Source: Entrophospora sp. SA101 (Eukaryota > Glomeromycota > Glomeromycetes > Entrophosporales > Entrophosporaceae). Taken from it: a DNA stretch of 28,851 bases. Each line of letters opens with the position of its first letter. Positions within the stretch are counted from its first letter, which is position 1. The DNA is taken from contig CAUDNR010000757.1 of assembly GCA_958430865.1 (NCBI GenBank), positions 9,827 to 38,677 of the forward strand. The letters are read 5' to 3'. Below the pieces are notes generated by a model. The model saw only the letters and a list, made by a program, of their open reading frames with translations. It had not been told where the DNA came from and did not search any database. The position numbers and the translations under genes were made by a program. Shown here piece by piece: positions 8,178 to 12,484 of this stretch.

Positions 8178-9840
8178 TTAAGATTCATTTTCATCTGATT
8201 GAGGAATTGGTCCCAAGAAATGAGAAACCATAACACAAAAAATTAAGGACACAACAGATGCCCATAAACAAGCATAGAAATCTAAATAATAAAACAAAAT
8301 CCCCCCAATAATTAAACCCAACAATCTACCAAGAGCATTTGCCATATAATAAAATCCTACATTTATTGCCACTTTGTCACGTTTACAATATGCCAATATC
8401 AAAAACGAGTGTATTGATGAATTTATTGCAAATATAAATGCAAATAGAAATAACCCAACCAATAATAGCACCAATAATGGAACATAGCTTGATGTGGTGG
8501 ATAGAGATAGTTGGACTACAGTTAATCCGATGGCTACACCAATTGATAATAGTAGTAGAAAAAGTGTTGACGGGACTAAGATTTTGCCACTTTTTAATGG
8601 ATATTGTTTAATTGGTTTTAAAATTAGTTGCGGAGTACTTGATTGTATAAATCCGTAAAATATCACCCATCCTGCAAGGAATGCTCCAGTTGGAATATAT
8701 GACCTGTATATTAGGGTAGATATTATTATTATTATTATCATCATCATCACCATCATCATTATTTTTCTTTATATAAAATTTATTCTACATACCAGCCAAT
8801 TGAAGGTCCACGTATAAATAATGGTAATGGAACTTCAAACCATAAATCACGTGATCCAAACAAAAACATTCTAGCAATAGATAGTATGTTTACATCTCTT
8901 CCTTTGAAAAAGATTTGTTTCAAAGTTAATTTTTTCTTTGACTTGGATACAGCCAAATCTCTATCAAGATAAAACCAAGCAGGTATCATGACAATAAAGT
9001 TCATCAACAATAAAACAATCAATGATGGAACGTATTGAATAAAATTAAGGAGGAAGGCACCCCAGAAGAAGCCAGCACCCTTAACCGAATTTTTCGCACC
9101 AGTCAACCAAGCAACCAATTTGAACAATCTAGATTTTTCTTGATCACTTGTTACTAGTTTTGTAACTGATTTACCACCTATCTTGACCATATCTTTTGCA
9201 ACACCGCTGAAACCTTGTGCAATAATTATATAAATGATCACCATTACTTTACTCCAATCAGCTTGTAGTCCACATAATATGGCTATTCCAATTATTTGTG
9301 CTGTCAAACCAACTAATAAACAAAACCTCAATCCTAATCTTGATCCCATTATTCCTCCAAATAAATTCGTAAAAGCTCCAATAAATTCGTATAAGATAAA
9401 CATAAAAGAGATTTCAAGTGCCTAGAAAAGAAAAATAAATCATTATAAAATATTTTATTTTATTAAAAATAAATAAAAAATAAAAAAATGAATCAATAAA
9501 AAAACGAATCGAAAATTACATTATATCTACGTTGAAATAATTCTAATAATACAATCATTCTTAAAGCAGAATCAGTCAACGTAAAAAGTAGGTAACCACT
9601 TGCTATCACATAAAAATTTCTCATTCCTGTCAATTGTTTTTTATCATTTTCTGTTGATGCTATGTTTGTATCTTTATCTTTATTGATTTCTTCATCTTCA
9701 ACTTTTTCTAAAACCTTTTGCTGTTGATCATTTTTTTTTTCGTTAATGCTTTTATCATTATCTATTATTATTGGTGAAGCATTATTTTCATTTGTTTCTA
9801 CCACCTGGACTATATCTGTTGTATTTTCCTTCTCTATCAT
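8178..9840 (-). CDS. arsJ: ArsJ-like MFS permease, putative 1-arseno-3-phosphoglycerate exporter (3 exons)
   Basis: Minus-strand exons 9840-9520, 9421-8793 and 8703-8178 give 491 residues; both introns are GT-AG and the phases fit (0, then 2). Residues 1-72 are a hydrophilic, acidic extension; about 12 membrane helices follow. The sequence has the ArsJ pattern rather than a generic MFS one: FTLTDSALRM (86-95), FILYEFIGAFTNLFGG, SGVAKDMVKIGGKS, FLFGSRDLWF, IGWSYIPTGAFLAGWVIFYG (formed across intron 2), FAINSSIHSFLI and GFYYMANALGRLLG. In bacteria ArsJ exports 1-arseno-3-phosphoglycerate made by a partner GAPDH, giving arsenate resistance. A divergent GAPDH gene starts 299 bp away, which fits that role. 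Known: the bacterial function. Seen: motifs and linkage. Inferred: the same job here. A related uncharacterised eukaryotic MFS subfamily is the alternative. Intron 2 carries an ATT/ATC microsatellite. Confidence 0.85.
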
Positions 9841-10139
9841 TATTAATTATCAATTTTTTTCAAGAGGAAAAAATTTAAAAAAAAAGAAAACCGAAAATTT
9901 GTTGAATATTTAAATAGAATTATGTATGTAACACGAGAAATGTTGTCATTATTAATCGAATACAGCATAAATATTTAGATTATTTCAAGAAATTTGATTG
10001 GGTAAATGAATTAAAAATTCATTTATTTCCTAATTTATATAGATAAATGTTAGATCATTTGTATTGTGATACATCCAAAAGAAGTATAAAAGAAAGCCTT
10101 TTTTTTTTTTAATTTTAAAAGAATTCTTTTATTTTAAAC
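9841..10139. promoter_or_regulatory. Shared divergent promoter of the ArsJ-like and GAPDH genes
   Basis: Only 299 bp separate the two start codons. Toward GAPDH there is a TATAAA at 10085-10090, about 50 nt before the ATG, then a T-rich tract. Toward the permease, the minus strand shows a TATTTAAAT-like box at about 9908-9917, roughly 70 nt before its ATG, and then a pyrimidine-rich tract. Between the boxes, 9948-9957 reads ATTATTAATC, the complement of GATTAATAAT. The compact head-to-head layout suggests co-regulation, but no expression evidence is available. Confidence 0.6.
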
Positions 10140-12484
10140 ATGACAATTAAAATCGGAATTAATGGGTGATTGATTATTTCATTCACTAATCAATAATTAA
10201 TGAATTAAATTCAATAAACTTTTTTTTTAATATCAATATTTATTTATATACATGTAGTTTCGGGCGTATTGGACGTGTTGTACTTCGTGCTTCTCTTGAG
10301 AATCCCGAAGTTCAAGTTGTCGGCATAAATGATCCTTTCATGGACTTGGATTATGTGGTATGACATAACAGTAGTATCAATGTATATCTATAAAGCCAAA
10401 CCTTGTCACAATGGATGCACGGGACACATAATCATAATAACAAGAGAATTTCATTTAAAAACGTTACGCCGAAAATACTGATCTCGTCATAACCGATTTT
10501 ATAAGTTTTTTTTTATATTAATATATTTTATATTAATATGAAACAGAAATTTAAAAAGCTGTTATAACGCGAATTTAGCTATAATCCATCGTGGCAAGGT
10601 TTGAGAATAGATAAATATTTTAACGTTACCTTAACTAAATTATTAATAAATGAATAGGTTTATCTTTTCAAATATGACACCAATTATGGAAAATATAAAG
10701 GCCATGTGGAAATCAAAGAAGGAAAATTTGTTGTTGATGGTAAAGAAATTTCGGTCTTTTCAGAAAAAGATCCAATTCAAATCCCATGGGGATCGATTGG
10801 AACCGATTATGTTGTTGAATCATCAGGTGTATTTACCACCACTGAAAAAGCTTCTGCTCATTTGAAAGGTATATTATATATTGTTGTAATCATAATTGTA
10901 ATAAAAATTTTTTTAAAATAAAACTAATTTATATTTTATTATTATATTAGGGGTATGTTACATTATTTTGAATATTGAGAAAATTTAAATAACGATTATT
11001 ATTATTATTATCGTTATCTTTGGTATTAATATAAAATTTTTCCTTACATTGAATGAATTGTTTTAGGGTGCTAAGAAGGCAAGTAATTTATTGTTTTGAT
11101 TTGTCATCCGATATTTGAAAATGTAGATCTCCCTCCCTCCCACCTTTTAAAAAAAGTGCCCAGTCCGAAGTTTACATATTGACTGTTAATATAAAATTTT
11201 ATGACAATAAAAAAAAAAAGAGTAACAATCAGAAAATGCAGCTTGGGCTTTAAGCTTTAATTTCCATAGTTTATTTTTTCATAACCTTAACAAACATAAA
11301 ATTTTTATGTCGATCTTGGACGAGAATTTCTAATAGTGAAATGTGTATATGTATATATAGGTTATTATTACTTCACCAAGTGCCGACGCACCAATGTTTG
11401 TTTGTGGAGCTAATTTGGATACTTATAAACCTGAATATAAAATTGTTTCCAATGCAACGTGCACAAGCAATTGTTTGGCACCTTTGGTAAAAGTCATTCA
11501 TGACAACTTTGGTATTGTTGAAGGCTTAATGACAACAGTTCATGCAACCACTGCAACTCAAAGAACTGTTGATGGAACCTCTGGAAAAGTAAATAATAAT
11601 AGTATAGATATTAAATCAATAAGTGAATGAACTTTTTATTTATTTTTTCGTTCGTTCATTATTTATATGATAGGATCGGAGAAGAGGAAGGGTTGCGTCT
11701 CAAAATATCATTCCAAGTTCAACTGGCGCCGCCAAGACAGTTGGAAAAGTAACTAGTTATTATTATTAGTATTAATTAAAACGAATGACTTTTACATAAA
11801 ATGAATAACTTATAAACATAAAAACACACACACACTTATATAAATATAGATCATTCCAGCATTAAATGGAAAACTTACTGGAATGGCCTTTAGAATTCCA
11901 ACAACAATTGTTTCTGTAGTTGATTTAACCGTCAAATTGGCAAAAGAAACCAATTATGAAGAAATTAAGCAAGCAATTAAAAGTGCATCTGAAAATGAAT
12001 TTAAAGGAATTATCGATTATACTGAAGATGATGTAAGTCGAATTGCAATAATTATATATCGTATTATTACTATTATTACTATTTTCTTGACAGATAGATA
12101 ATTCTTGATTTTAACTATTTAAATGATTTGCTTGCCTATTTTTAGGTTGTTTCTAGTGATTTTATTGGCAATACTCATTCTACTATTTTTGATGCTAAAG
12201 CTGGCAAGTAATAGTTATCATAATATCACACCACAGGTATTTAATTAATCAATTAATTTATTTATTTATATATTTTTTATTTAGGAATTCAATTAAACCC
12301 AACATATGTTAAACTTGTTGCTTGGTACGATAATGAATGTAAGTTGTTAACAAATCAATTTCTTCTCTTGCTTTCAATCAAAATTAATAAATTTTTTCCG
12401 CTCCTTCTTTTAGATGGTTATTCCTGTCGTGTTCTTGATTTAATCTCACATATTGCTAAAATTGACTCATCTGCTCAAAGCTAA
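10140..12484 (+). CDS. Glyceraldehyde-3-phosphate dehydrogenase paralogue linked to ArsJ (11 exons, two micro-exons)
   Basis: Exons: 10140-10165, 10258-10357, 10658-10868, 10951-10952 (2 nt), 11067-11078 (12 nt), 11361-11588, 11674-11748, 11850-12032, 12146-12203, 12285-12338 and 12414-12484. They total 1020 nt, 339 residues, the normal GAPDH length. Present: the NAD-binding GINGFGRIGR, GINDPF, catalytic Cys151 and His178 (TTVHATTATQ), SSTGAAK, the phosphate-binding Arg in TGMAFR, and NEYGYS near the C terminus. GAPDH oxidises glyceraldehyde-3-phosphate with NAD and phosphate; arsenate can replace phosphate to give 1-arseno-3-phosphoglycerate. Odd points: the active site reads ATCTSN instead of ASCTTN, the usual DWRGGR is DRRRGR, and RVPTPDVS is RIPTTIVS. 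Introns after exons 5 and 9 start with GC. Overall it looks eukaryotic, so it is probably a diverged host paralogue rather than a bacterial import. Linkage to the ArsJ-like gene suggests an arsenate-specific role; a housekeeping role is not excluded. Confidence 0.93.
10397..10603. mobile_element. MITE inside GAPDH intron 2
   Basis: The ends are 20-bp inverted repeats with two mismatches: CAAACCTTGTCACAATGGAT at 10397-10416 and ATCCATCGTGGCAAGGTTTG at 10584-10603. The element nearly fills the 300-bp intron. No clear target-site duplication is visible. A related end sequence lies at about 6556-6592, so the family has at least two copies here. Confidence 0.65.
10951..10952 (+). other. 2-nt micro-exon (GG) of the GAPDH gene
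   Basis: ATTATATTAG directly precedes GG, which is followed at once by GTATGT, a consensus donor. Exon 3 ends in phase 1 (AAA G). Joining it directly to the 12-nt exon at 11067 reads AAA GGG TGC TAA, a stop. Including the two G gives AAA GGG GGT GCT AAG AAG, i.e. KGGAKK, the expected GAPDH text. No other AG or donor shift restores the frame. Confidence 0.75.

Follow-up and report, generated by a model that had tools for sequence, protein, structure and literature searches.

Whether a permease gene and a GAPDH gene lying side by side in the mycorrhizal fungus Entrophospora sp. SA101 serve together to dispose of arsenate was the question raised by an initial annotation of a 28,851-nucleotide stretch of its genome, hereafter the window. 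Both genes were intact, adjacent, and arranged head to head. The ArsJ-family MFS permease gene occupied positions 8178 to 9840 on the minus strand and encoded 491 aa in three exons (9840–9520, 9421–8793, and 8703–8178, stop included), with GT donors and AG acceptors. The linked type I GAPDH gene occupied positions 10140 to 12484 on the plus strand and encoded 339 aa in 11 exons (10140–10165, 10258–10357, 10658–10868, 10951–10952, 11067–11078, 11361–11588, 11674–11748, 11850–12032, 12146–12203, 12285–12338, and 12414–12484). The two start codons were separated by a gap of 299 bp (9841–10139) with 19% G+C, a candidate shared two-way promoter. The outer gene limits at 8178 and 12484, the 299-bp gap, and the intron-rich, physically linked eukaryotic organization described in the initial annotation all agreed with the sequence and the splice models.

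In the splice model of the linked GAPDH gene, 10 introns (eight GT-AG and two GC-AG, including a GC donor at 12204) left an uninterrupted frame of 339 aa. The 2-base exon GG at 10951–10952 was required to keep the reading frame. The second GAPDH gene of the genome had the same 2-base exon, and KGGAKK was read at this site in the intron-free relatives P0122 and P0123.

That the adjacency of the pair is an assembly artefact is exceedingly improbable. Such an origin is suggested by the downstream flank, where an N gap marked the start of a 4.7-kb block repeated at 99.4% and was adjoined by an 88-bp fragment of the GAPDH gene in inverted orientation. However, this gap was the only N run in the window (12953–12962) and lay outside the gene pair, and contig C2035 corresponded to positions 6451–12891, the entire pair included, with 99.94% identity over 6442 bases. 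The ArsJ gene with its GAPDH neighbor at 299 bp was found on two contigs of one genome; since both belong to one assembly, the second contig is not fully independent support. Moreover, both genes were spliced, and their nearest protein matches came from Entrophospora sp. SA101. Given the second contig and the lack of N within the pair, the artefact explanation was dropped.

The identity of the permease was assessed with profile models and phylogeny. The model NF033734 (MFS_ArsJ) matched the 491-aa protein over model positions 1–390 of 392 (E = 2.3e-118), and the score of 395.8 bits was 4 bits below the curated cut-off of 400, with the whole model covered. Six other eukaryotic ArsJ-like proteins scored 368.6–407.0 on this model, with Chlamydomonas reinhardtii P0088 at 380.0. 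Pfam MFS_1 (PF07690) covered residues 80–414, and a crude hydropathy scan gave 13 overlapping peaks, compared with the 12 transmembrane segments proposed in the initial annotation. The four ArsJ-type motifs reported there were all present in the spliced minus-strand protein, at residues 86, 118, 293, and 410. The 102 rows of the tree were confined to ArsJ of eukaryotes and bacteria; within this scope the fungal permease fell in the eukaryotic ArsJ group, with all 19 other sampled Glomeromycotina rows and with chytrid and blastocladial fungi. This grouping and the NF033734 match bear out the assignment to ArsJ. Judging from the tree, ArsJ is common to the sampled Glomeromycotina and not peculiar to Entrophospora sp. 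SA101. A second ArsJ copy, on contig C1691, had no GAPDH near it in 20 kb of examined sequence that included 1.9 kb of N. Screening of viral contigs for ArsJ gave 92 pattern matches, with no relative among them.

The linked GAPDH scored 421.9 bits on TIGR01534 (GAPDH-I), above the cut-off of 367.2, matched PF00044 and PF02800, and retained the active-site Cys and His motifs (NATCTSN and TVHATTATQ). On NF033735, the model for bacterial ArsJ-associated GAPDHs, with a cut-off of 450, it scored 323.5 and the second GAPDH 342.3, and in the tree it was separated from the bacterial ars GAPDHs (100/100). A bacterial origin was rejected on this score and this separation. The linked gene is instead paralogous to the second GAPDH of the genome, in line with the recruited host paralogue that had been proposed from its eukaryotic look. 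The dN/dS between the two copies was 0.23, indicating that the linked GAPDH is under constraint. Their dS was 0.45, and the AU test did not reject a recent duplication within Entrophospora (p = 0.21). Gene conversion was discounted, as dS was even along the gene (0.39–0.56) and no patch was seen.

In the tree, the linked GAPDH grouped with the Rhizophagus clarus GAPDHs P0171 and P0241 (96/92), and nine residues were common to both halves of this clade and rare elsewhere. Residue 195 was R in 6 of the 6 fungal-clade rows counted and in all 19 bacterial rows, and residues 97 and 90 leaned the same way, the fungal clade toward the bacterial ars GAPDH. Residue 188, of interest for the use of NAD and NADP, was altered in the linked copy. 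R at residue 195 is, however, widespread among other GAPDHs of bacteria and plastids; thus, convergence on the bacterial ars enzyme is only a lead and was set aside as a finding.

The expectation that related fungi carry the same pair found some support. R. clarus ArsJ P0014 and the clade GAPDHs P0171 and P0241 were each listed on a contig of equal length, 457,095 bases, whereas the ArsJ and clade GAPDH of Glomus cerebriforme were listed on different contigs (382,618 versus 115,788 bases). Among the tree rows, no Diversispora, Acaulospora, Cetraspora, or Dentiscutata GAPDH belonged to the clade, and ArsJ was present in all four. No intron-free (transcript-like) clade member was found among the matches listed.

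Linkage of ArsJ with GAPDH is itself known from published systems. A gapdh-arsJ operon is known from Pseudomonas aeruginosa (Chen et al. 2016, via PMC7826186), and in the var operon of Vibrio cholerae (PMC9601151) an ArsJ-family permease gene likewise adjoins a GAPDH gene. As the initial annotation had stated for bacteria, a GAPDH frame adjoined ArsJ in 76 of the 80 best bacterial ArsJ loci; the pairing as such therefore commonly signals this route. The GAPDH of the bacterial operons belongs to the separate family NF033735 and the genes stand in tandem on one strand, whereas the fungal pair is divergent and contains introns. The ArsJ cargo is disputed in print (1-arseno-3-phosphoglycerate versus free arsenate). 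In V. cholerae, ArsJ reportedly expels arsenate in its free form, and the proteins of this bacterium reportedly act independently (PMC9601151).

Green algae have a published ArsJ-GAPDH3-PGK neighborhood, also eukaryotic and intron-bearing; their ArsJ shared the eukaryotic side of the tree with the fungal protein, and algal arsJ and pgk3 mutants are described as arsenate-sensitive (PMC7826186). The fungal pair is therefore not the first eukaryotic ArsJ-GAPDH linkage. However, algal GAPDH3, which was not in our tree, is bacterial-like according to the same source, whereas that of Entrophospora sp. SA101 is of fungal type. A PGK-like gene is adjacent in most, but not all, algae (PMC7826186); the fungal pair had no adjacent PGK, and PGK was rejected as a third member, since the genome's 10 PGK matches were confined to contig C1912. 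The GAPC1-OCT4 route of arsenate detoxification in Pteris vittata (Cai et al. 2019, cited in PMC7826186) likewise combines a host-type GAPDH with a transporter, but that transporter is OCT4, not ArsJ. The Cyanidiales share a eukaryotic ArsJ with Entrophospora sp. SA101, but their arsJ stands alone (PMC9812998), and PMC12860867 terms ArsJ a bacterial family. No description of a fungal ArsJ-GAPDH pair was found in the open-access literature among the best-ranked matches of broad searches. The new element is the pairing of ArsJ with a recruited fungal GAPDH. Overall, the interpretation of the initial annotation held for the ArsJ grouping, the fungal GAPDH paralogue, and the R. clarus contig listing, but not for novelty among eukaryotes.

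We predict, with a probability of roughly 60%, that the divergent pair is an arsenate-detoxification module in which GAPDH and ArsJ act together. By analogy with bacteria and algae, arsenate would enter via phosphate transporters, the linked GAPDH would likely join it to glyceraldehyde-3-phosphate to form 1-arseno-3-phosphoglycerate, and ArsJ would likely export this ester, or free arsenate after its breakdown; the 299-bp gap may co-regulate both genes. This reading draws on the whole-length ArsJ model match and tree position, the pair on two contigs, the constrained GAPDH, the equal-sized R. clarus contig, the nine shared residues, and the arsenate-sensitive algal mutants (PMC7826186). In addition, profile searches of the fungus's own genome gave no match to the ACR3, SBF, ArsB, or ArsH models. 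Counted against it are the 4 bits missing to the ArsJ cut-off, the unrejected recent duplication with a dS of only 0.45, the absence of the clade from the rows of the four genera and of an intron-free member among the matches listed, and the independent action reported for the V. cholerae proteins (PMC9601151). The different contigs of G. cerebriforme and the second ArsJ without a near GAPDH also weigh against it.

These last two points, together with ArsJ in Glomeromycotina rows where no clade GAPDH was seen, would also suit an unlikely alternative, in which ArsJ exports arsenic, any cytosolic GAPDH supplies the arseno-intermediate, and the neighboring GAPDH is a second glycolytic isozyme there by chance. 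The head-to-head placement at 299 bp, the R. clarus contig listing, and the unusual residues of the clade argue against chance. It is quite improbable that the permease, an ArsJ by descent, has turned to a different anion or phosphorylated compound, such as a glycolytic ester, with the pair serving carbon or phosphate metabolism and not arsenic. ArsJ is kept in many eukaryotes without known arsenic exposure, hemichordates included, and its score here was just below the cut-off; but C. reinhardtii P0088 scored lower still, and algal relatives are reported to be required for arsenate tolerance (PMC7826186).

Beyond the arsenate-detoxification module, we tentatively suggest, with more doubt than confidence, that AM fungi rebuilt a bacterial-style arsenate-export route with their own dedicated GAPDH paralogue, co-driven with ArsJ by one two-way promoter, which would replace the missing ACR3/ArsB pumps and return arsenate to the soil while phosphate reaches the plant. 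If so, ArsJ would have acquired unrelated GAPDH partners on two or more occasions, once in bacteria, with the pairing retained in algae, and again in fungi, with parallel enzyme changes. In the pair, a eukaryote would have rebuilt a partnership resembling a bacterial operon, using an enzyme encoded in its own genome. Mycorrhizal fungi supply phosphate to most land plants, and arsenate is taken up by the same route; their way of disposing of it has consequences for arsenic in crops, and the pair predicts that arsenic would leave in the form of arsenate or of a labile arseno-ester, not of arsenite.

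The ArsJ gene lies on the minus strand (exons 9840-9520, 9421-8793 and 8703-8178; a three-exon splice model of 491 aa), and its start codon is 299 bp from that of the linked GAPDH gene on the plus strand (10140-12484; an eleven-exon splice model of 339 aa). The window covers C679:9827-38677 in a genome of 101 Mb and 2123 contigs, and Entrophospora is placed in Glomeromycotina, i.e. the arbuscular mycorrhizal (AM) fungi. The same pair was found on contig C2035 with 99.94% identity across 6442 bases; the two contigs show four differences, one of them in a coding exon (9316, ArsJ). 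Among database proteins of Entrophospora sp. SA101, P0001 matched ArsJ at 100% listed identity over 85% of its length, with at least one residue differing by eye, and P0125 matched the linked GAPDH at 98% listed identity with 86% covered. Repeats resembling artefacts begin past the GAPDH gene and outside both coding regions, except for an inverted 88-bp GAPDH stretch (12868-12952) beside the sole N run of the window (12953-12962). A block of 4.7 kb that includes a gene for a CAF1-type nuclease (PF04857) is present twice (263-4978 and 12963-17691, 99.4% identity), the second copy beginning directly after this 10-base gap and adjoining the GAPDH scrap; it looks like an assembly duplication. A 1612-base repeat in the region of an IPP-transferase gene (PF01715 at 26575-26862) has copies of 100% identity at 22614-24225 and 24617-26228, and is either a recent tandem duplication or an assembly error. 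An HMG-box protein gene (PF00505; 19916-20998, minus strand) has a long low-complexity tail rich in Asn/Asp.

The permease matched the ArsJ model NF033734 over positions 1-390 of 392 (E 2.3e-118) with 395.8 bits, 4 below the curated cut-off. Six further eukaryotic ArsJ-like proteins scored 368.6-407.0; one of them, C. reinhardtii P0088 at 380.0, may be the gene mutated in PMC7826186. When 5.8 billion proteins were searched, 7998 candidates were scored and 5721 passed, and the best 120 of these were ordered as Glomeromycotina, then chytrid and blastocladial fungi, hemichordates and algae. A quick tree (SH-aLRT support only, some long rows flagged) was built from 102 rows: the window, 61 of the best 120 matches, and every second (40) of 80 bacterial loci. 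All 62 window-and-match rows were split from bacteria by a 100% branch. A 42-row set with 97% support held all 33 named fungal rows, eight rows without a species label and P0037, which we take to be Cyanophora, and the 20 Glomeromycotina rows fell inside a 21-row set (99%). Because of this grouping, ArsJ in these fungi can be read as an old inheritance. Three hemichordates (acorn worms) carry ArsJ-like proteins (P0046, P0047 and P0048), i.e. ArsJ in animals; these rows group with algal ArsJ, and P0047 lies above the cut-off (407.0).

Elsewhere in the genome, a second ArsJ on C1691 (dS 0.19 to the window ArsJ) has its frame broken in exon 2, and no GAPDH was found near it in the 20 kb examined, 1.9 kb of which is N. 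Fragments of ArsJ were also located on C1478, C1668 and, twice, C222. Profile searches of the genome with largely bacterial models gave no matches to ACR3 (TIGR00832), SBF (PF01758), ArsB (PF02040) or ArsH (TIGR02690); they take exons singly, and a heavily interrupted gene may escape, though GAPDH and PGK exons were detected in this way. RiarsC, RiArsB, RiMT-11 and GiArsA, named for other AM fungi in reviews (PMC8879560), sit uneasily with ArsJ acting alone.

Bacterial gapdh-arsJ operons served as the yardstick. At least 580 ArsJ relatives were confirmed in prokaryote genomes and the best 80 were retained; a GAPDH frame adjoins or overlaps the ArsJ frame in 76 of them (gap of at most 864 bases), counting partial GAPDHs in L030 and L060. 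Four loci (L067, L079, L093 and L099) had no adjacent GAPDH, L079 and L093 having nearly no upstream DNA within the locus retrieved. In a Filomicrobium MAG (L047, 1828-4242), GAPDH and ArsJ lie within one open frame, likely a natural fusion, and as such it would support a joint function of the two proteins.

ArsJ-linked bacterial GAPDHs showed 37.9-45.4% best-match identity to the fungal housekeeping GAPDH. The linked GAPDH was above the cut-off of the GAPDH-I model TIGR01534 (421.9 vs 367.2) and below that of NF033735, the bacterial ArsJ-associated GAPDH model (323.5 vs 450). Since the housekeeping copy scored 342.3 on NF033735, the linked GAPDH is, by this measure, no nearer to the bacterial type. 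Of the two GAPDH genes in the genome, one lies on C679 and C2035 and the other on C638 and C2066. A careful 65-row tree took in 19 of the 76 GAPDHs linked to bacterial ArsJ (one in four, subject to length filters) and united the linked GAPDH, SA101 P0132, E. candida P0156, R. clarus P0171 and P0241, G. cerebriforme P0134 and F. caledonium P0242 in one clade (96/92), here named GAPDH-J. The grouping recurred with support of 96 in a quick 121-row tree that left out the bacterial ars GAPDHs. G. cerebriforme has a housekeeping-type GAPDH (P0182) in addition to GAPDH-J.

In the splice model of the linked GAPDH, an exon of 2 bases (10951-10952) is necessary, as are two introns of the GC-AG type; the second GAPDH gene requires the identical 2-base exon (locus L020, 4186-4187) and shares one GC donor. 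The KGGAKK that the model predicts at the junction is present in P0122 and P0123, whose contigs measure 1229 and 1088 bases. Exactly there, several GAPDH models deposited for AM fungi (P0171, P0190, P0182, P0184 and P0170) are misread, which suggests that this exon is old and often overlooked by annotation.

A single old origin of GAPDH-J would fit its clade support of 96/92 and nine residues, rare elsewhere, that are common to its Entrophospora and Glomerales halves; three are common to GAPDH-J and the housekeeping copy within Entrophospora, and a control pairing gave none. At ten positions GAPDH-J residues are rare among 39 other non-bacterial-ars rows, e.g., Y for H at position 51 and I for D/N at 236, both present in each of the six GAPDH-J rows counted (P0132 omitted). 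However, a tree joining the linked GAPDH to the fungus's housekeeping copy is not rejected by the AU test (p 0.21), the dS between the two is 0.45 and uniform along the gene, and their matching introns outscore mismatched ones (z 0.8-4.1, mean 2.0, vs a mean of -0.02 and a maximum of 4.14 in 66 mismatched pairs), as for a young duplication within the Entrophospora lineage. Under a young duplication, those nine residues would have changed in parallel, the more striking outcome. The dN/dS between the two copies is 0.23, and the linked GAPDH is therefore under constraint.

Linkage could be judged in two relatives, R. clarus and G. cerebriforme. R. clarus ArsJ (P0014) and its GAPDHs P0171 and P0241 are each listed on a contig of 457,095 bases, and because this length is equal within one species, ArsJ and GAPDH-J are very probably on the same contig. 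G. cerebriforme counts against linkage, with ArsJ P0003 on a 382,618-base contig and GAPDH-J P0134 on one of 115,788 bases.

According to PMC7826186, green algae have ArsJ-GAPDH3-PGK clusters with a bacterial-like GAPDH, algal arsJ and pgk3 mutants are arsenate-sensitive, and a fern route cited there uses GAPC and OCT4. Two other papers describe arsJ as solitary in Cyanidiales (PMC9812998) and report extrusion of free arsenate by the ArsJ of V. cholerae (PMC9601151). In the open-access literature searched, mostly at listing level, no description of such a pair in a fungus was found. Whereas the algal cluster combines a bacterial-like GAPDH with PGK, the Entrophospora partner is a fungal host-type GAPDH. 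We infer that the Entrophospora pair belongs to a known type of ArsJ-GAPDH module, with a predicted function in arsenate export; it is new in its make-up, namely a fungal host-type GAPDH, a divergent arrangement and a mycorrhizal host.
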